Positions 1 to 31,381 of a stretch of 31,381 nt of DNA are shown piece after piece. Each line of letters starts with the position of its first letter. Positions within the stretch are counted from its first letter, which is position 1. Under the pieces are notes generated by a model. It saw only the letters and a program-made list of their open reading frames with translations. It was not told where the DNA came from and ran no database searches. Both the position numbers and the translations under genes were made by a program. Origin of the DNA: a virus; the IMG/VR virus record IMGVR_UViG_3300023109_000080, positions 1-31,381 of that record; one strand, 5' to 3'.

Positions 1-40
1 CCTCGCCATTCGGATAAAAGTTAGGCCTTTTAGTTTCCAT
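1..40 (-). CDS. Cys-rich small protein, N-terminal fragment (runs off the window)
   Basis: The leftward ATG at 40-38 opens a frame reading METKRPNFYPNGE before the edge. It is base-for-base the same as the start of the complete 69-aa Cys-rich gene at 30843-31052. It is therefore the second copy of that gene's 5' end, cut by the window boundary and not a separate gene. Its start lies 10 bases inside the end of the coiled-coil gene (stop 30-32), the same overlap as at 31042-31052. Confidence 0.8.
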   Translation of the reverse strand, partial: METKRPNFYPNGE

Positions 41-200
41 GCTCTACTAATTTCCTTAAATCTTTTGCTATCTGTAAAGCCTTGTTTAATTTTCTTAATG
101 CAACATCTCTTTGAATTTTAGCTTGATCACATTCTGCTCTAGCTTGATCTCTTTGTTGTCTTAATTTTAAAAATGTATTCTCTCCAATTAGTTCACTCAT
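30..200 (-). CDS. Small coiled-coil protein, left allele (56 aa)
   Basis: The protein is charged and helical, with a heptad-like run of Arg, Gln, Asp and Lys from residue about 8 (KLRQQRDQARAECDQAKIQ) to the end (RKLVEHGN), so a short coiled coil is likely. I chose the ATG at 200 because AAGGAAG lies just upstream; the frame extends upstream without a better site. The ATG overlaps the stop region of the tiny basic ORF at 202-339, suggesting translational coupling. A second allele (31042-31218) is nearly identical from residue 5 on, with one Ala-to-Ser change, but begins with GTG. Mostly synonymous differences indicate a real protein under purifying selection. Function is unknown. Confidence 0.7.
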   Translation of the reverse strand: MSELIGENTFLKLRQQRDQARAECDQAKIQRDVALRKLNKALQIAKDLRKLVEHGN

Positions 201-201
201 A

Positions 202-339
202 TTATCTTCCTTGTCCTTTATATCGTTTTTGTTTTTGTTGTCGTTTTTCTTGTTTGTTTTTATTTTTCTTATGTTTTCCAGCACCTCTTTTTGGTGGTTT
301 ATCTCTTGGTATAAAGTGCGTGAATTTTTGTTTAGCCAT
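202..339 (-). CDS. Tiny lysine/arginine-rich protein, left allele (45 aa)
   Basis: The protein starts MAKQKFTHFIPRDKPPKRG and is then almost wholly Lys, Gln, Arg and Asn, ending KGQGR. Its ATG sits inside the last codons of the small terminase gene (stop 332-334), and its stop (202-204) lies just upstream of the coiled-coil ATG at 200, so it is packed into an operon. At the other end of the window the same slot holds a different basic protein (31202-31357) sharing only the start, the basic character and a KNRGQGK/KGQGR-like tail. Such peptides may bind nucleic acid, but that is inference. Confidence 0.55.
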   Translation of the reverse strand: MAKQKFTHFIPRDKPPKRGAGKHKKNKNKQEKRQQKQKRYKGQGR

Positions 340-706
340 TTACCTCGTCAGCTTTAGCATCAATGATTAATGGTAGTGGTTCAACAGTTTGTGTAGTGTG
401 TATCTTATCAACCATGTTAAGTTCGTTTTTAGATAGCCAGATAAGTAACTTAGGGTCGCCTTTAAGTGCTTTCTCCCAAAGTTTCTTTCTTAGACTAGCT
501 TTACCAATGTTTTTATTTTCTGCTACTAGATCGGCATATCGTCTTTGTAGTGTTCTAGCAGATATTCCTACAACAGAACCAATTTCTTCTTGAGTACAGC
601 CTATCTGACTAAGTTTTGCTATAACATCTTTATCTAGTTCTTTCTTGGGTCGTCCTATAGATTGTGTCTTAATTGTGTCTTTTGTCTTAATTTTGTCGTT
701 TTTCAT
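332..706 (-). CDS. Terminase small subunit (124 aa), probable
   Basis: Small terminases recognise the packaging site on phage DNA and hand it to the large subunit. Residues about 25-60 form a helix-turn-helix (CTQEEIGSVVGISARTLQRR). They are followed by the family-typical stretch LRKKLWEKALKGDPKLLIWLSKNELNM at about 72-98, which resembles the 'GNPTMLIWLGKN' region of many phage small subunits. Length is normal. On the circular map it precedes the large subunit (29447-28212) across the junction by about 2 kb of tiny genes. Its last ten codons recur at 31350-31381. A generic HTH regulator is the alternative, but the C-terminal motif favours terminase. Confidence 0.75.
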   Translation of the reverse strand: MKNDKIKTKDTIKTQSIGRPKKELDKDVIAKLSQIGCTQEEIGSVVGISARTLQRRYADLVAENKNIGKASLRKKLWEKALKGDPKLLIWLSKNELNMVDKIHTTQTVEPLPLIIDAKADEVNG

Positions 707-715
707 AATGCTAAT

Positions 716-1270
716 TTATATCTCATTTCCCCATGAATCCCAACCCTCTGCTTTCTGTCTAGCAAATAATTCTATTCTAGGTAAATCTCCACAAAGTTCT
801 GTAATTCTAGTTCTTATCTCATCTGGTTTTTTAGAGTGTATGGTTCTATCAGCCATTAACAAAGATTTTACATTATTAGATTTTTTAATATTCTTTAATT
901 TACCTTTTAATCCTATTAAACAAATTTCAGTAGATTTCATAGTATATTTACCTAAATTATAATAAAAATTGTTATTTTTGGTTTGTTTTACCCATACAAA
1001 ACCAATAGTAGCAAATTTAAAACCCCAATCATAAATTATTTTAAAAGATTTTTCTAAATGACTATCTACAACCCACATGAATAATAAAGCATCATCATTA
1101 GTTATTTTTTTAACAGGCAAATTACAAATATCTTTAATAGACATTGTTTTATATTTATCTTCTACTCTATTTCCAAAACCTCTATTACCATCTTGATATT
1201 TTGGAGAGTTAAAAGAATATGGTGGGTCAGCATATATAATATTATATTTTTTATTTGGAAAAGGTATCAT
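716..1270 (-). CDS. MT-A70 family adenine-N6 DNA methyltransferase (184 aa)
   Basis: The protein carries the catalytic DPPY motif at residues 15-18 (IIYADPPYSF), as in MT-A70/Dam-like N6-adenine methyltransferases. Downstream are the family-typical LLFMWVVDSHL, FVWVKQ and HSKKPDEIRTRI (about residue 145) stretches. Length (about 185 aa) fits the compact phage members. It probably methylates adenine in the phage genome to evade host restriction or mark DNA. No restriction partner is visible, so an orphan methyltransferase is likely. The start (1270) overlaps the stop of the HExxH gene by ATGA, so the two are translationally coupled. Target sequence cannot be told. Confidence 0.9.
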   Translation of the reverse strand: MIPFPNKKYNIIYADPPYSFNSPKYQDGNRGFGNRVEDKYKTMSIKDICNLPVKKITNDDALLFMWVVDSHLEKSFKIIYDWGFKFATIGFVWVKQTKNNNFYYNLGKYTMKSTEICLIGLKGKLKNIKKSNNVKSLLMADRTIHSKKPDEIRTRITELCGDLPRIELFARQKAEGWDSWGNEI

Positions 1271-2432: not shown

Positions 2433-2751
2433 TGTTCTCTCCTTTTAGGTTAAAAAAATCATTTACTTGTTCTAAACTTTTTATTTCTTTTAAAGTCCTA
2501 TGTAATAATTCTTGTTCAGTTCCATAACGAGCCTCAAATTGTTCTTTGCAATTATGAATACTAAAAGCACCGAGATGGTGGCTTGGACACAAAGGTATGA
2601 CTTCATAGTGACTTGCTCGTTGTCCAAAACCAATATTACCTTTACCATCTCCACGATTTCTTATGTGATGACAGATTGCTGGTCGCTGACAAATTAAACA
2701 ACCAAGTGATGAAACTAAAGCCAGATGTTTTTTTTCTTTTTTACTTGCCAT
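2425..2751 (-). CDS. Ref/HNH-type nuclease (108 aa), probable
   Basis: The Cys/His spacing is that of a zinc-stabilised HNH fold: C18-x2-C21, H28-H29, then IPLCPSHH (C55, H58, H59) and SIHN (H66, N67). The intervening GFGQRASHYEVIPLC resembles the P1 Ref (RecA-dependent nuclease) / DUF968 group, in which these residues hold zinc and the catalytic His. Ref cuts DNA opened by RecA filaments and aids recombination. Here it could work with the host RecA in recombination-linked replication. The 37-base overlap with the upstream winged-helix gene is unusually long. The exact substrate and RecA dependence cannot be read from the sequence. Confidence 0.7.
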   Translation of the reverse strand: MASKKEKKHLALVSSLGCLICQRPAICHHIRNRGDGKGNIGFGQRASHYEVIPLCPSHHLGAFSIHNCKEQFEARYGTEQELLHRTLKEIKSLEQVNDFFNLKGENNG

Positions 2752-3029
2752 ACAATTCCATTCTTACCATTTACAGTTTTTCTTTTATATCCACTATCTT
2801 CAATTAAATCTAAAAGTTGTAACTCTCTCACTCTAGCACAAACAGAACTTAATGGTATTTCCAACTCTCTTGAAATCTCACAATTGTTTAGAGGTTTTAA
2901 TTTTATAAGTTCATGCACTTGCTGTCGTTTGGTTTTAATTTTTGGTTTAATATCAGCTAGTGCCTGTTTAGATGTTTCTGTGTAATTACAAGACTCGTAA
3001 TCAGTATCAAATATATCTAATTGTTTCAT
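2715..3029 (-). CDS. Winged-helix DNA-binding protein (104 aa)
   Basis: Residues about 38-90 look like a winged helix: HELIKLKPLNNCEISRELEI, then LSSVCARVRELQLLDLIEDS and a beta wing (KRKTVNGKNGIVWQVKKK). The alternation 'cis-element recognised by splitting into small arms' is typical of phage wHTH regulators that control their own operon. It follows the 165-aa gene almost without gap (TAA 3030-3032, ATG 3029), sharing its GAGAGAT-type ribosome site, and stands near the head of the leftward transcript. It could regulate the divergent promoters at 3528-3830 or serve in DNA replication. The true role is unknown. Confidence 0.65.
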   Translation of the reverse strand: MKQLDIFDTDYESCNYTETSKQALADIKPKIKTKRQQVHELIKLKPLNNCEISRELEIPLSSVCARVRELQLLDLIEDSGYKRKTVNGKNGIVWQVKKKKNIWL

Positions 3030-3527
3030 TTATCTCTCTACTGTTTCTATTATTGGTAAATTAAAATCTACATTATTAATCATGCCTTTAATATGAATTG
3101 GAAAATCAACACCAGAATTTCTTGATTTATAATTTCCATCTCTATTTTCATATCTGTATGTTTCATTTTTAATTAATGCTTCTGATATATCTTTGTTAGT
3201 TTCATTAACATTAGATTTAAGACCTTTAACAACAGCATGATATAATTGATCGTTAGTTGCAGTTCTAACAAACATTGGATAATAATCTGTTCGATTATGA
3301 TATTTGCTAATTACTTTTTTATATCCAATTAAATTATAAACAGTAATAAATTCAAATTGTGCTGATCGTAAATTTTTAAAACCAGCATCAAAAGATATTC
3401 TTCTACTACCTATTTTTTTTATTTGAACAATCTTACCAGCAGAAGTTCCATACTCCATTCCTGTGTAAGAATCTAAAAGTACATAGTCGCCAACTTTTAT
3501 TTCTATTCCGTATTTATCTGTTTTCAT
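3030..3527 (-). CDS. First gene of the leftward operon, 165 aa, unknown function
   Basis: The frame is open up to 3719, but I place the start at the ATG at 3527, which has AAGAGAGAT six bases upstream. Upstream codons encode low-complexity residues and cover the promoter region. The N-terminus (KYGIEIKVGDYVLLDSYTG, then GTSAGKIVQI and FEFITVYNLIGY) looks like a small KOW/SH3-like beta-barrel, seen in several phage proteins. The rest is polar. It is the first gene after the divergent promoter region and the leader hairpin. No function is assigned. Confidence 0.6.
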   Translation of the reverse strand: MKTDKYGIEIKVGDYVLLDSYTGMEYGTSAGKIVQIKKIGSRRISFDAGFKNLRSAQFEFITVYNLIGYKKVISKYHNRTDYYPMFVRTATNDQLYHAVVKGLKSNVNETNKDISEALIKNETYRYENRDGNYKSRNSGVDFPIHIKGMINNVDFNLPIIETVER

Positions 3528-3532
3528 TTTTA

Positions 3533-3575
3533 TCTCTCTTGTTATGACCAGCCCCAAGTAGAGAGAAGACTTGGG
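3533..3575 (-). promoter_or_regulatory. Leader hairpin with loop complementary to the ribosome binding site
   Basis: In the leader of the leftward transcript, 3553-3559 and 3569-3575 form a perfect 7-bp stem (CCCAAGT/ACTTGGG) with a 9-base loop. The loop sequence (leftward strand CTTCTCTCT) contains TCTCTCT at 3560-3566. This is exactly complementary to the AGAGAGA ribosome site at 3533-3539 in front of the ATG at 3527. Such a geometry could form a pseudoknot that hides the ribosome site. The pairing is seen; any regulatory effect is inferred. Confidence 0.45.
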
Positions 3576-3678
3576 AACTGATCGGTTAAGTATATGATAT
3601 GAAAATAAATACTTATGTCTTGCGACTCTCTCGTTATATATTTTTTTATTTATAATCATATCTTTAATTGATTCGTTT

Positions 3679-3705
3679 TTTATATTTGATTTGTTTAAAT
3701 TGCAA
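3679..3705 (-). promoter_or_regulatory. Candidate promoter for the leftward block
   Basis: On the leftward strand TTGCAA (3700-3705) is followed 15 bases later by TATAAA (3679-3684). The spacing is shorter than the usual 17, so this is only a candidate. It lies upstream of the leader hairpin and the first leftward gene and is embedded in very AT-rich DNA, where chance matches are common. Confidence 0.3.
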
Positions 3706-3720
3706 GAATTAAAACACAAG

Positions 3721-3748
3721 TTGTTAAAATAGTTAAAAAAGCTATATT
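3721..3748 (+). promoter_or_regulatory. Candidate promoter for the rightward block
   Basis: TTGTTA (3721-3726) and TATATT (3743-3748), 16 bases apart, resemble a sigma-70 promoter. A second weaker pair, TTGCAT (3768-3773) and TACATT (3790-3795), follows. Either would start a transcript ahead of the first rightward gene at 3831. No experimental support; AT-rich sequence raises the false-positive rate. Confidence 0.35.
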
Positions 3749-3766
3749 TTATGCGATAAATTAGCT
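3740..3766. promoter_or_regulatory. Imperfect palindrome, possible operator
   Basis: AGCTA (3740-3744) and TAGCT (3762-3766) are perfect inverted arms separated by 17 bases. The inner arms ATTTTAT and ATAAAT are partly complementary too. The palindrome covers the -10 element of the candidate rightward promoter, so a repressor bound here would block it. The XRE protein (5145-5519) or the winged-helix protein (2715-3029) are natural candidates. This is inference from position and symmetry. Confidence 0.35.
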
Positions 3767-3830
3767 ATTGCATAATACAACCCATTTGGTACATTATTTG
3801 TATATGAAAAACAAAAATAAAGGAGAGAAC

Positions 3831-4106
3831 ATGAAAAACAGAACACTAAAATTAGTTAAAGGAAATATTATTTACAAAAATAAATATCCTTTAGTTAGAG
3901 TAGAAAAAGTAGAACAAGAATTTGGTAAATTTACTTATATAGTTTTTACCAAAGATGCTTCTTCATCTGAACCTGATAATTTTGAGCCAATGATGAATTA
4001 TCATAAAAAAGGTATTGCATTAGATAGTGCATACAATGTTGTTCAAAATCAAATAATTGATTTGATGAAAGAAGTTAGAGATATTAAAAGAGAGGAGAGA
4101 GCATAA
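3831..4106 (+). CDS. First gene of the rightward block, 91 aa, unknown function
   Basis: I place the start at the ATG at 3831 because AAAGGAGAG lies directly upstream. The frame can be read back to 3768 but only over the promoter region. The protein begins MKNRTLKLVKGNIIYKNKYP and has alternating beta-like segments followed by a C-terminal helix (QIIDLMKEVRDIKREERA). No family is recognised. Its position directly after the divergent promoter implies early, high expression, and such first early genes often encode host-takeover proteins, though nothing in the sequence proves it. Its stop overlaps the ATG of the next small gene (TAATG at 4104-4108). Confidence 0.65.
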   Translation: MKNRTLKLVKGNIIYKNKYPLVRVEKVEQEFGKFTYIVFTKDASSSEPDNFEPMMNYHKKGIALDSAYNVVQNQIIDLMKEVRDIKREERA

Positions 4107-4201
4107 TGAAAAAAATAGCATACTACACTTTAGGTTTTATTTTTTCAGGTTTATGTTTAACTGCAATCATGTTAGGTTGCTTACACGTTTGGAGTATATA
4201 A
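4106..4201 (+). CDS. 31-aa membrane micropeptide
   Basis: ATG 4106 to TAA 4201 encodes MKKIAYYTLGFIFSGLCLTA followed by IMLGCLHVWSI, a basic start plus one hydrophobic segment long enough to cross the membrane. GAGGAGAG stands upstream. It overlaps the neighbours on both sides with TAATG junctions, the main evidence that it is translated. It has no known homologue to me. A membrane-acting early peptide (for example superinfection exclusion or host-membrane effect) is possible but unproven. Confidence 0.55.
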   Translation: MKKIAYYTLGFIFSGLCLTAIMLGCLHVWSI

Positions 4202-4479
4202 TGATTGTTAAAAAACAAAATCGTAAAGACTCAACAGTTCATACTTTTATACAAGGCGATAGATATTTTCAATTTACAGAATACTTTGAAGATTCTTACA
4301 GTTGCCTTTTTGATAAAAAAAGAAACAAACCAACTTTTAAAAAAGGTCATATTCATTTTAGTTATCTACTACCTAAAGATAAATGGATAATGGCTTCGCC
4401 TACTTGGTTTCCTGTTTCTAAAGATATTACAAATCTTAAAGATGCAAAAAGGTTTGTTAAGAATAGGGAGTATCTATAA
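4201..4479 (+). CDS. Small protein of 92 aa, unknown function
   Basis: The ATG at 4201 shares a base with the stop of the membrane peptide, so I prefer it over the earlier in-frame start at 4153, which would overlap that gene. The protein is rich in aromatic and basic residues (DRYFQFTEYFEDSYSCLFDK, then KDKWIMASPTWFPVSK) and probably forms a small beta domain. No domain is recognised. It ends in TAATG with the next gene. Confidence 0.6.
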   Translation: MIVKKQNRKDSTVHTFIQGDRYFQFTEYFEDSYSCLFDKKRNKPTFKKGHIHFSYLLPKDKWIMASPTWFPVSKDITNLKDAKRFVKNREYL

Positions 4480-28211: not shown

Positions 28212-29447
28212 TTACTTCATTGTCCATCTTGTTGGAGAGTTAAATCTTGCCTGAGTAGTTAATGGTTTTAAATAATCAATCATATAACCTAGTGCGTCAT
28301 TCATATGATCGAATCCATCTTCCTTATCAGGAATATTTGTATTCTCCTTGTATATTTGTCTTTGTAACCCTTTTATCAGCGTTTTGCAAGAATGTGAAAC
28401 AAAAATATGTCTTTCGCCATTAGAATCTTTAAGCCTACTGTTCACAGCATTGACTCTATCTCGTATTGCTGGGTGTTTGTGTTTTACTTTAACTTTAAAT
28501 CCAGCGTTCTGCAAAATAGATAAATCAGTTCTACCACCAGCAGAAGTCTTACGTTGTTTAGAGGCTGGGTCAGGATATATAAATATTTGCATTTTAGTTC
28601 CATAACGATCTCTTAATTCTTGCACCATTTCATCAGTATTACTTCCATAAATGATAACCTCATCTACAAAATAAACTTTATCTTTTTCTATTTGCCCTAC
28701 ACAAGCACTCATTGGGTCAACGTTAAAGTCCATTCCTATATGTAAAGGTTTTTCCCAATCTATCTGTCGTTTAACAACATTATCTACAGGGTGGAAGTTA
28801 TAATAAACACTACCAGCATAGTTCTCAAATGTACCCTCAAACTCTTGTCTAAAAGTTCTAATATCAATATCTTGTTTAGCTTGTTCTATTTCATCTGCTG
28901 ATACCATTCCACCTTGTATTGTGGTGTATTGAAAACTATCCCATTCATTGTCTTGCTTACCTTTAAGATATAATTCATAACTCCAATTACCATAACCTTT
29001 AGGTGTTCCACAAAATAGTACATGGCCTAATCTATCAGATATACTTGCTCTCAATACCTCATACCAAGTACGCTTATCTATATCTGCAAACTCATCTAAG
29101 ATTAAAAAGTCTAATCCTGTACCTCTAAGTGAATCATAATTATCTGCACCCTTTAATGATATTTGACTATTAGTTTTTCTAATAGTTATTGTCATTGTAG
29201 TTTCGTTAATATCCTCAATCCAATTAAACTGATTAAGCATTTCTTTAAGAGTTCCCCAGACAATCTCTTTAGCCATTTTAAATGTAGGTGCTACATACCA
29301 AATTCTTCTATTTGGTTGACACGCATACTTCATCATTTCAGTTACAGCTAAATAAGTCTTACCAAATCTACGACCTGATATTAAGACTCTGAACCTTGAT
29401 TTGCTTGATGATACTTTAAGCTGGGGTTTTGTCAGAGTTATTTTCAT
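28212..29447 (-). CDS. terL: Terminase large subunit (411 aa)
   Basis: The ATPase motor is clear: Walker A GRRFGKT (25-31), Walker B LDFLILDEF with D118 and E119, and coupling motif FCGTPKG (146-151). The C-terminal RNase-H-like nuclease has IGMDFNVDP (D240), FVDEV (D262) and DHMNDALGYM (D380/D384), the expected acidic set. It packages the genome using ATP and cuts concatemers. It sits upstream of the portal with tight spacing. Subfamily (Terminase_6C-like) is inferred; packaging mode cannot be told. The start 29447 overlaps the 73-aa gene by 32 bases. Confidence 0.95.
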   Translation of the reverse strand: MKITLTKPQLKVSSSKSRFRVLISGRRFGKTYLAVTEMMKYACQPNRRIWYVAPTFKMAKEIVWGTLKEMLNQFNWIEDINETTMTITIRKTNSQISLKGADNYDSLRGTGLDFLILDEFADIDKRTWYEVLRASISDRLGHVLFCGTPKGYGNWSYELYLKGKQDNEWDSFQYTTIQGGMVSADEIEQAKQDIDIRTFRQEFEGTFENYAGSVYYNFHPVDNVVKRQIDWEKPLHIGMDFNVDPMSACVGQIEKDKVYFVDEVIIYGSNTDEMVQELRDRYGTKMQIFIYPDPASKQRKTSAGGRTDLSILQNAGFKVKVKHKHPAIRDRVNAVNSRLKDSNGERHIFVSHSCKTLIKGLQRQIYKENTNIPDKEDGFDHMNDALGYMIDYLKPLTTQARFNSPTRWTMK

Positions 29448-29637
29448 TACAAAAGTAAGATATGTATAATTTTTCCTTGTTAAATCTTTCTGAATAATTT
29501 TCTGTGGTTATTATAGTAACTTCTGCTCCACCCTTAACACATTCTGTCCATGAGTTAAATTCTTTTTGAACTGTTATAGGGTTCTGGCAATATCCTGTAA
29601 TTGCAGAGCAGAGAGAAAATATTAAAATAAATTTCAT
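29416..29637 (-). CDS. 73-aa secreted protein
   Basis: N-terminus MKFILIFSLCSAITGYCQ has a basic start and a hydrophobic core of a signal peptide; a lipobox is not convincing (GYC). The mature part (TVQKEFNSWTECVKGGAEVT, then YISYFCNENNSDK) has three Cys and is expected in the periplasm. It overlaps the large terminase start by 32 bases and the next gene by 4. A marine phage small-protein pair like this might work as a spanin-type lysis or periplasmic effector, but that is inference. Confidence 0.6.
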   Translation of the reverse strand: MKFILIFSLCSAITGYCQNPITVQKEFNSWTECVKGGAEVTIITTENYSERFNKEKLYISYFCNENNSDKTPA

Positions 29638-29858
29638 TGTTTAGACACTATCTTTTTAATAGATTTACTGCCATCTATATTTTCTTCTAATTCAGCTTGT
29701 ACTTTCCCACATTTCCACTCGATTGATTTACTAGAATTTCTTTCTGCTTCTCTTTTACCTTTTAAACAATCAGACATTTTCTCTTGGATTCTATGTTCTT
29801 TTAACTCTCCAGCAACAAACATACACAATGCAACCACACTACTAATAATTGTTTCCAT
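29634..29858 (-). CDS. 74-aa protein with N-terminal membrane segment
   Basis: METIISSVVALCMFVAGELK forms an N-terminal hydrophobic anchor, followed by a Cys-containing hydrophilic domain (CLKGKREAERNSSKSIEWKC, then AELEENIDGSKS). Proteins beginning METII-ALCMF with CLxxKR-AER follow terminase-associated regions of marine phages, from memory, and have no known function. ATGA overlaps couple it to the 73-aa gene. Confidence 0.65.
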   Translation of the reverse strand: METIISSVVALCMFVAGELKEHRIQEKMSDCLKGKREAERNSSKSIEWKCGKVQAELEENIDGSKSIKKIVSKQ

Positions 29859-30204
29859 TTTGTCTTACCTTATCTTTTAAATCTTCAACATCAGCTAACG
29901 CTTTATCTAATTGATCTCTTAAAAATTGTATATTAACTTTATTCGTCATGTTTTGTTCTTGAGTTAATTCTAATTTTTCTGTTGTCTTATATAAATCTTC
30001 TATCAACATATATTGTTCTTGATCAGTTGGAAGTTGCTCAGATTTTTTAAGTAAATCAGCTTGGAATAATTCTCTTGATGTTTCAAGGCTTGTTAGTCTT
30101 GCAGTAACTTCTGTGTAGGCAAAGACACCCATAGCAACAGCAACAACTATACCAACCATGTTTTTAATTGGCATAGCAACAGATGTATTGTCAGATATTT
30201 TCAT
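29842..30204 (-). CDS. 120-aa membrane-anchored coiled-coil protein
   Basis: Basic start with a hydrophobic segment at about 18-33 (VGIVVAVAMGVFAYTEVTA) followed by a long charged helical domain (RLTSLETSRELFQADLLKKS, then QFLRDQLDKALADVEDLKDK). A conserved marine phage family has the same SVAMPI-VAVAMGVxAY start. It looks like an inner-membrane protein with periplasmic or cytoplasmic coiled coil, possibly a spanin-like or regulator of lysis. It is linked by ATGA and overlap to the 23-aa and 74-aa genes. Confidence 0.65.
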   Translation of the reverse strand: MKISDNTSVAMPIKNMVGIVVAVAMGVFAYTEVTARLTSLETSRELFQADLLKKSEQLPTDQEQYMLIEDLYKTTEKLELTQEQNMTNKVNIQFLRDQLDKALADVEDLKDKVRQNGNNY

Positions 30205-30272
30205 AATGGTGCAACCAATAAAGTTAGTAAGATAAATGCAATAATGATACTACCTGTAAAATAATAATTCAT
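30201..30272 (-). CDS. 23-aa single-pass membrane micropeptide
   Basis: ATG 30272 with GAGGA upstream to TGA 30201 encodes MNYYFTGSIIIAFILL followed by TLLVAPL, almost wholly a membrane span. Its stop overlaps the ATG of the 120-aa gene (ATGA at 30201-30204). Such micropeptides are easily missed by gene callers. Confidence 0.5.
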   Translation of the reverse strand: MNYYFTGSIIIAFILLTLLVAPL

Positions 30273-30280
30273 GTTAATCC

Positions 30281-30445
30281 TCATTTAGCAACTTTACCTT
30301 TGTTAATACCTTTTTTAATTACATATTGTTGAGTGCCATTAGCACCATGATTTACTTCTTGTTTTAAGTTCTTAAATATATTCATTTCTTTTAACTTCTT
30401 CTCTGAGTGTTTTTTAAACGATTCTAAAACTTTAGTATCTCTCAT
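30281..30445 (-). CDS. 54-aa basic protein, unknown
   Basis: ATG 30445 to TGA 30281. It reads MRDTKVLESFKKHSEKKLKE, then MNIFKNLKQEVNHGANGTQQ and YVIKKGINKGKVAK. The NHGANGTQQYVIKKGINKGK part may be a compact nucleic-acid-binding element. It is coupled by an ATGA overlap to the preceding 30-aa gene. No function known. Confidence 0.55.
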   Translation of the reverse strand: MRDTKVLESFKKHSEKKLKEMNIFKNLKQEVNHGANGTQQYVIKKGINKGKVAK

Positions 30446-30534
30446 CTTTTTTTCTTTTTAGTTAATGTCTTTGCAAGACCCTCACAGAATTTATCTATAG
30501 CTGATAAAAATTTTACAATGTATTTATCAATCAT
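30442..30534 (-). CDS. 30-aa peptide, unknown
   Basis: ATG 30534 to TGA 30442 encodes MIDKYIVKFLSAIDKFCEGL and a basic end AKTLTKKKKR. Both ends overlap neighbours in ATGA junctions (30531-30534, 30442-30445). The amphipathic helix plus basic tail resembles other micropeptides in this operon. Confidence 0.45.
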   Translation of the reverse strand: MIDKYIVKFLSAIDKFCEGLAKTLTKKKKR

Positions 30535-30803
30535 AATTTAAAACCTTTCTGCCATGCTCTGATACTCCAATATGCTGGAGATAGAGTCTTTTGGCCTCTT
30601 ACCTTTTTAAGAACTCCACCCATACGAGCCATGAATGATCTCTTTCTTGCTGGAATATGTTTCTTAATTGACATTTCCTTAGAGCCAAAATTAACCTTTT
30701 TAACTCTGCCAGATGATCTATCTTTTACAAATACTTTAAACTTCTTAACATCTCCACGCATAGGTTTGTTAAGTTTCACAGTTTTGTTTTTATATTTAGC
30801 CAT
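30531..30803 (-). CDS. DUF5872-like conserved phage protein (90 aa)
   Basis: The sequence KPMRGDVKKFKVFVKDRSSG, then RVKKVNFGSKEMSIKKHIPA, RKRSFMARMGG and a final YWSIRAWQKGF resembles a conserved phage family: GDxKKFxVxVKN, VKKVNFG, KRxSFxAR and YWxxxxW. Relatives (for example in cyanophages) have Cys in this region; here the Cys pair is replaced by Gly/Val. Function unknown, but conservation in structural clusters suggests a virion-related or DNA-binding role. It is very basic. Confidence 0.7.
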   Translation of the reverse strand: MAKYKNKTVKLNKPMRGDVKKFKVFVKDRSSGRVKKVNFGSKEMSIKKHIPARKRSFMARMGGVLKKVRGQKTLSPAYWSIRAWQKGFKL

Positions 30804-30842
30804 AATAAACTAAATATCATACAACAATCTAAATTTGAAGTT

Positions 30843-31052
30843 TTATCTCTTGAAGTGTCTTTTTCTCCACTCGTGGCAAACATAAGTATCTTTAACTCCT
30901 TTAGAACCCCACTTACCACAGAATGACCACTTGTTACTGTAGAGTCCACAATCTCCACAGCTATTTCCTTTTAATGCTTTAGTAAATGATTGAGGTAAAG
31001 AATAATCTATTACCTCGCCATTCGGATAAAAGTTAGGCCTTTTAGTTTCCAT
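30843..31052 (-). CDS. Small Cys-rich zinc-ribbon-like protein (69 aa)
   Basis: The sequence NSCGDCGLYSNKWSFCGKW then DTYVCHEWRKRHFKR has C-x2-C, C and C-H, enough to bind a zinc ion. The N-terminal ETKRPNFYPNGEVIDYSLPQ is polar. It might be a zinc-ribbon DNA- or protein-binding regulator. The first 13 codons recur at 1-40 because the window overlaps itself. It lies between the coiled-coil gene and the 90-aa gene. Confidence 0.65.
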   Translation of the reverse strand: METKRPNFYPNGEVIDYSLPQSFTKALKGNSCGDCGLYSNKWSFCGKWGSKGVKDTYVCHEWRKRHFKR

Positions 31053-31218
31053 GCTCTACTAATTTCCTTAAATCTTTAGCGATCTGTAAAGCCTTATTTA
31101 ATTTTCTTAAAGCTACATCTCTTTGAATCTTAGCTTGATCACATTCTGATCTTGCTTGATCTCTCTGTTGTCTTAGTTTTAAAAATGTATTCTCTCCAAT
31201 TTCATTTACCTTGTCCAC
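31042..31218 (-). CDS. Small coiled-coil protein, right allele (58 aa)
   Basis: This frame starts at GTG 31218 (AAAGGAAAA upstream) and reads VDKVNEIGENTFLKLRQQRD, then continues like the left allele (30-200) with one Ala-to-Ser change. About ten mostly synonymous base changes separate them. The left allele starts MSEL, so the N-terminus and start region were replaced together with the upstream micro-gene. Start codon choice is inferred from position and ribosome site. Confidence 0.65.
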   Translation of the reverse strand: MDKVNEIGENTFLKLRQQRDQARSECDQAKIQRDVALRKLNKALQIAKDLRKLVEHGN

Positions 31219-31357
31219 GATTTTTTCCTTTCCCTCGTTGTCTTCGTTTGTTTTTATTCATTGTACTTGTTATTGGCTTTCTACCAATAGAAGTTCCTTT
31301 GGTTGTTTTAGTGTATTCAATAGTTGCACCAAATAGATTACCTTTTTTTTTAGCCAT
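31202..31357 (-). CDS. Tiny lysine/arginine-rich protein, right allele (51 aa)
   Basis: ATG 31357 overlaps the small terminase stop as in the left copy. The protein reads MAKKKGNLFGATIEYTKTTK, then GTSIGRKPITSTMNKNKRRQ and ends KGKNRGQGK. It shares with the left allele only the MAK start, the basic bias and the RGQGK/KGQGR end. Its stop overlaps the GTG start region of the coiled-coil gene. Confidence 0.55.
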   Translation of the reverse strand: MAKKKGNLFGATIEYTKTTKGTSIGRKPITSTMNKNKRRQRGKGKNRGQGK

Positions 31358-31381
31358 TTACCTCGTCAGCTTTAGCATCAA
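31350..31381 (-). CDS. Terminase small subunit, C-terminal fragment (runs off the window)
   Basis: The last codons DAKADEVNG followed by TAA (31350-31352) are identical to the end of the gene at 332-706. The upstream part is cut by the window edge. This fragment shows that the repeat starts inside the small terminase gene. Confidence 0.8.
   Translation of the reverse strand, partial: DAKADEVNG

Follow-up and report, generated by a model that had tools for sequence, protein, structure and literature searches.

Genes at the two ends of the window

The window is a 31381-base virus record from an ocean phage (positions 1–31381; full length), and each of its ends carries a micro-gene, a small basic open reading frame (ORF) located between the gene for the small terminase subunit (TerS) and a short gene termed here the coil gene. 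The micro-gene adopts different forms (A and B) at the two ends, and TerS falls into three types (T1, T2 and T3) set at 65% identity. The two ends very probably reflect two processes together, the assembly of a chimaeric contig over one full turn of the genome and the natural exchange of alleles at conserved gene-border patches. The genes of the locus are arranged as follows.

1–363, minus strand: left copy of the locus, allele A, containing in reading order the TerS tail, the micro-gene, the coil gene and the first codons of the Cys-rich gene
31013–31381, minus strand: right copy of the locus, allele B, 97.8% identical to the related locus L003; its last 33 bp are a T1-type TerS tail
202–339, minus strand: form A of the micro-gene, a strongly basic protein of 45 aa in PHROG 17967; the start (ATG) lies in an 8-nt overlap with the end of TerS
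31202–31357, minus strand: micro-gene form B, 51 aa, same family; the protein is identical in L162, L164 and L165
30–200, minus strand: coil gene, left copy, 56 aa, with its ATG just past the micro-gene stop
31042–31218, minus strand: coil gene, right copy, 58 aa, with a GTG start within the micro-gene 3' end
30843–31052, minus strand: Cys-rich gene, 69 aa, located after the coil gene and used as the downstream anchor
332–706, minus strand: TerS, type T1, 124 aa, phrog_309 (E 4.5e-8)

The two ends are paired by blastn at 78% identity (1–363 and 31013–31381; E 8.6e-83). Their edges are identical over 65 bp at the start (1–65 and 31013–31077) and 33 bp at the end (331–363 and 31349–31381). From the IGENTF codons to the stop, the coil genes differ at 10 nucleotides, each in a separate codon, of which nine are synonymous and one replaces Ala with Ser. 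These observations bear out an earlier note on this DNA, which had described the ends as two versions of one locus with a shared coil gene carrying about ten mostly synonymous changes. The note had also described the basic ORF and the coil N-terminus as different in the two copies. Both do differ, but the two ORFs are related and belong, in diverged form, to a single family. The coil N-terminus is MSEL-IGENTF in the left copy (ATG at 200) and MDKVNE-IGENTF in the right copy (GTG at 31218). In allele B, the coil gene apparently starts inside the last codons of the micro-gene (31202–31218), whereas in allele A it starts just after them. An exact search of IMG/VR with the left coil variant gave no match.

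Relatives of the window

Among phages, the region matches the cultured Pelagibacter phage HTVC111P best (72% identity, 88% query coverage). Both genomes share the gene order TerS (gp21 in HTVC111P), micro-gene (gp22), coil gene (gp23) and Cys-rich gene (gp24), followed by small genes up to TerL. The TerL and TerS assignments are profile matches. Sequence similarity to HTVC111P from TerL to TerS, together with this gene order, places the window among the HTVC111P-like pelagiphages. Further contigs of this clade were gathered from IMG/VR in searches with TerL, TerS and Cys-rich protein sequences and with exact allele patterns. In these loci, the slot between TerS and the coil gene is nearly always occupied by one small basic ORF in one of three main forms, which start with MAKQKFTHFIPRDKPP (form A), MAKKKGNLFGATIEYTKT (form B) and MAKKKGNVFGTVVVYEKKHKR (form C).

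Exchange junctions

In the aligned relatives, sequence identity switches at two positions that flank the micro-gene.

332–339, minus strand: upstream junction, ATGGCTAA, 8 nt in which the end of TerS overlaps the beginning of the micro-gene
165–188, minus strand (approximate): downstream junction, at the coil-gene codons for IGENTF; about 31177–31200 in the right copy

When loci are aligned at the micro-gene ATG, pairs that share TerS T1 but carry forms A and B exhibit 0.89–0.97 identity in the 40 bases that precede this codon, and the identity drops to ∼0.3 by position +20. Pairs that share form B but differ in TerS (T1 and T3) show the reverse, with identity rising from ∼0.7–0.8 to 0.97 across the junction. 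The ATGGCTAA element is fully conserved in both comparisons. The overlap of TerS and the micro-gene spans 8 nt in 55 of 112 loci and 20 nt in a further 44. Downstream, the IGENTF codons mark a rise in identity between alleles A and B from ∼0.4 to 0.9. Most forms share a purine-rich 3' end of the micro-gene (typically GGACAAGGAAR), in which the following gene probably has its ribosome-binding site. Shared flanks that enclose alternative, diverged genes are thus found in independent genomes, and the switches at ATGGCTAA and IGENTF in relatives support the proposal that alleles are exchanged at exact gene junctions.

Reassortment of TerS types and micro-gene forms

TerS types and micro-gene forms occur in many combinations. 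TerS T1 is found with form A in 33 loci, form B in 19 and form C in 20. T3 is likewise found with all three forms (A, 3; B, 8; C, 6), and T2 is combined with form B in 22 loci and form C in one. Pairwise identity matrices show little correlation between neighboring genes (TerS/micro-gene, r = 0.11; micro-gene/coil, 0.24; TerS/Cys-rich, 0.00; coil/Cys-rich, 0.47), against 0.44–0.60 for TerL and portal segments. Form A in L008 lies beside a TerS that is 52% identical to that of the window, and form B in L084 lies beside a TerS that is 99% identical to it. In L165, two stretches closely match the window (96.6% identity over 28575–31379 and 97.8% over 1265–1945). Between them, TerS is of type T3, and the MT-A70 DNA methyltransferase of the window is replaced by a ParB-N6/N4 methyltransferase fusion.

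The variation extends beyond the micro-gene. Among 101 loci with a TerL at least 93% identical to that of the window, 29 have a micro-gene closest to form A, 35 to form B and 12 to form C; median identities are 60–89% for TerS and for the small genes that separate it from TerL. The variability is therefore shared by several genes of this region, and the slot does not stand out as a singular hotspot. The suggestion of a hypervariable accessory site in the earlier note agrees with the entry of methyltransferase genes nearby, but the slot is not unique in its variability.

An assembly artefact alone, in which alleles of unrelated strains were joined without any natural exchange of the micro-gene, is a very unlikely explanation for this pattern. 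Many separate IMG/VR datasets yield the same alleles in many TerS combinations with clean junction switches, and L165 exhibits a clean exchange of TerS and methyltransferase in a 97–98% identical backbone. Moreover, form A adjoins TerS proteins that are only ∼52% identical to each other, and the cultured isolates HTVC111P, HTVC112P, HTVC026P and HTVC202P carry different forms and TerS types. These observations outweigh the fact that the contig does finish in two differing alleles and that virome assemblers are known to yield chimaeric contigs (PMC5490008).

Full-turn structure of the contig

The window maps end to end as one full turn. Of seven long relatives inspected, four (G001, G002, G004 and G005) also make about one full turn, and they open at ∼22.8, ∼25.7, ∼6.2 and ∼16.9 kb on the window map, respectively. 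The ends of G004 overlap exactly over 81 bp, consistent with closure. These relatives open elsewhere, so the genome has no fixed physical end at the slot. Among the 201 loci with a micro-gene, the window alone contains two; none of the 200 other fetched loci does.

In a phage genome, the terminal repeats should be identical to each other. The window ends are 78% identical overall and differ in micro-gene form, so they do not form a direct terminal repeat. A physical structure with both alleles in one molecule, either diverged terminal repeats of a linear genome or a tandem duplication, would account for two copies in one record. It is nevertheless highly improbable, given that the right-end copy is truncated inside TerS, and it was rejected on the basis of the single-copy loci and the differing openings of the relatives. 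The same two observations make an assembly chimaera the likeliest origin of the two ends.

Proposed origin of the two alleles

The window would represent one full turn of a circularly mapping HTVC111P-like genome that was assembled from a mixture of near-identical strains. An assembly that opened at a polymorphic spot would start in the allele of one strain and finish in that of another. This contig is thus most likely itself chimaeric, and its ends most likely come from coexisting strains. The alleles may in turn be swapped between coinfecting phages by homologous recombination at short conserved patches that are fixed by the gene layout, as the pattern in the relatives suggests. The first patch would be the 8 nt shared by the end of TerS and the start of the micro-gene. 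The second would consist of the micro-gene 3' end, with the apparent ribosome-binding site that may constrain this junction, and the opening codons of the coil gene. Exchange at these patches would leave every reading frame intact, which would allow micro-gene alleles, TerS types and methyltransferases to reassort almost freely. Chimaeric assembly and natural exchange, offered by the earlier note as alternatives, thus both appear to hold, with the exchange supported by the relatives and the chimaera as the most likely reading of the contig.

Several points weigh against this combined explanation. The chimaeric nature of the contig is read from its relatives. The shared edges differ in length (65 and 33 bp), whereas one de Bruijn bubble would leave a simple k-mer signature. 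The last 33 bp of the right end are of TerS type T1, yet the closest allele-B relatives (L162, L164 and L165) carry T3, so a further strain type that combines T1 with form B, as in L084, must be assumed. Finally, the correlations between pairwise identity matrices are descriptive only because the loci are related to each other, and the TerL/portal segments used as a yardstick were taken from a different set of loci.

Programmed or targeted variation by phase variation, a diversity-generating retroelement or a homing element is very unlikely to have made the micro-gene forms, which are few and deeply diverged rather than scattered single-residue variants and whose neighboring genes also vary; the switches do fall at exact gene borders and methyltransferase genes do insert nearby, but a template-driven process was rejected because no second micro-gene template besides the two ends is present among the listed matches of the window repeat scan.

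TerS and the associated methyltransferases

TerS types T2 and T3 likewise match phrog_309. The TerS model (mean pLDDT of 74) is helical, with an N-terminal part resembling a helix-turn-helix and one long helix. A Foldseek search with this model gave no PDB match at E ≤ 0.001, with Sf6 TerS among the weak matches. Methyltransferase genes are located near TerS or the micro-gene in the window and in several relatives.

716–1270, minus strand (window): MT-A70 DNA methyltransferase, just upstream of TerS
3134–4300, minus strand (L165): methyltransferase gene upstream of the T3 TerS
1765–2355 (L112): inserted methyltransferase
2616–3107 (L104): inserted methyltransferase
1757–2527 and 2697–3476 (L119): inserted methyltransferases

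DNA methyltransferase genes are inserted between the micro-gene and the coil gene in three loci (L112, L104 and L119), and L119 contains one such gene on either side of the coil gene. Accessory genes thus enter between the micro-gene and the coil gene or through the joint exchange of TerS and a methyltransferase. A gene with a methyltransferase motif lies directly upstream of TerS T3 in 14 of the 15 loci with a readable flank. Examples of these T3-linked methyltransferases share common ends (a ParB-like start and an ENGQN- or ENGQK-like end) but differ in their catalytic motifs (FTDPPY, YTDPPY, NTDPPY, HTDPPY, FTSPPY and LTDPPY). By their sequences, they look as if the core had been swapped within the gene.

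Family and distribution of the micro-gene

In profile searches, form A matches phrog_17967 (E 6.2e-15), a family annotated as of unknown function, which is also matched by 51 of 57 aligned members drawn from forms A, B and C. The form-B copy at the right end of the window, scanned alone against PHROG profiles, gave no match; it is joined to the family through near-identical relatives and the comparison of the A and B profiles. A profile–profile comparison of A with B/C gives a probability of 95.6%, and the forms share common ends (MAK and NKxxKR...GQGR/K), although biased composition weakens all such comparisons of the micro-gene family. The L057 micro-gene is intermediate between the forms. 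The forms are therefore classified by sequence as diverged alleles of one small basic family rather than different genes. The alternative of two unrelated micro-genes was rejected, as both forms fall in one family with an intermediate member.

Relatives of A or B type are found in other pelagiphages, namely in HTVC100P, HTVC027P, 023Pt_psg01, HTVC023P, HTVC103P/104P and Sieqvirus S42C7 and in the T7-like phages HTVC168P and HTVC109P. In the latter two, the micro-gene relative is located one small gene before DNA maturase B. HTVC201P and HTVC304P exhibit only partial DNA matches, and no micro-gene ORF was recovered in HTVC201P. Form A was not matched by tblastn in phage records, where a low-complexity filter is suspected, but was found by blastn. 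An unannotated relative in L265 (1501–1668, minus strand) lies between two ribonucleotide reductase subunit genes of Sieqvirus S42C7. Other small genes at 29634–30445 of the window belong to PHROGs 24646 and 32989, which also occur in the T7-like HTVC168P and in HTVC100P near their micro-gene copies, and a pool of tiny genes seems to be common to several pelagiphage groups.

The predicted micro-gene structure (mean pLDDT of 61) is mostly devoid of secondary structure and uninformative for function, and no match was found among PDB sequences. A doubtful but conceivable role is that of a putative DNA-packaging partner of TerS, with divergent forms exchanged across pelagiphage groups to match, or evade recognition by, the packaging or host machinery. 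If so, the gene would be a portable module that spreads singly among otherwise unrelated SAR11 phages.

Comparison with known systems

The locus provides a clean, base-resolved instance of phage genes shuffled singly and draws attention to a family of small basic proteins found repeatedly in different groups of SAR11 phages. Literature searches found no paper on the micro-gene or on the exchange of PHROG 17967 members. Gene overlaps and, probably, ribosome-binding sites, which are kept for translation, may double as recombination handles. Because full-length virome contigs can end in two strains, mismatched end repeats should not be read as terminal repeats.

In cryoconite phages, coexisting homologous variants at fixed spots shuffle independently, with methyltransferase and terminase genes among those most often affected (PMC7468147). 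The window and its relatives resemble these metagenomic islands in their near-identical core, diverged homologues at fixed spots and independent reassortment of modules, but here the unit is a micro-gene of 45–51 aa in pelagiphages and the breakpoints are resolved to an 8-nt overlap. That mosaic junctions form at short conserved sequences on gene boundaries has long been proposed (PMC3029335). As in that proposal, exchange occurs at gene borders that bear a short conserved sequence, but coding constraint can account for the border here, through the overlapping start and stop codons and, probably, the ribosome-binding site of the gene that follows. Islands and cross-family transfers have also been published for pelagiphages (PMC6487183, PMC9599517), and marine microdiversity is known to break short-read contigs or make chimaeras (PMC6487183, PMC5490008), as appears to have happened here. 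Unlike the pelagiphage islands, the present site is a 0.15-kb slot beside TerS. The locus fits published mosaicism and metagenomic islands as a well-resolved new example of known phage gene shuffling.
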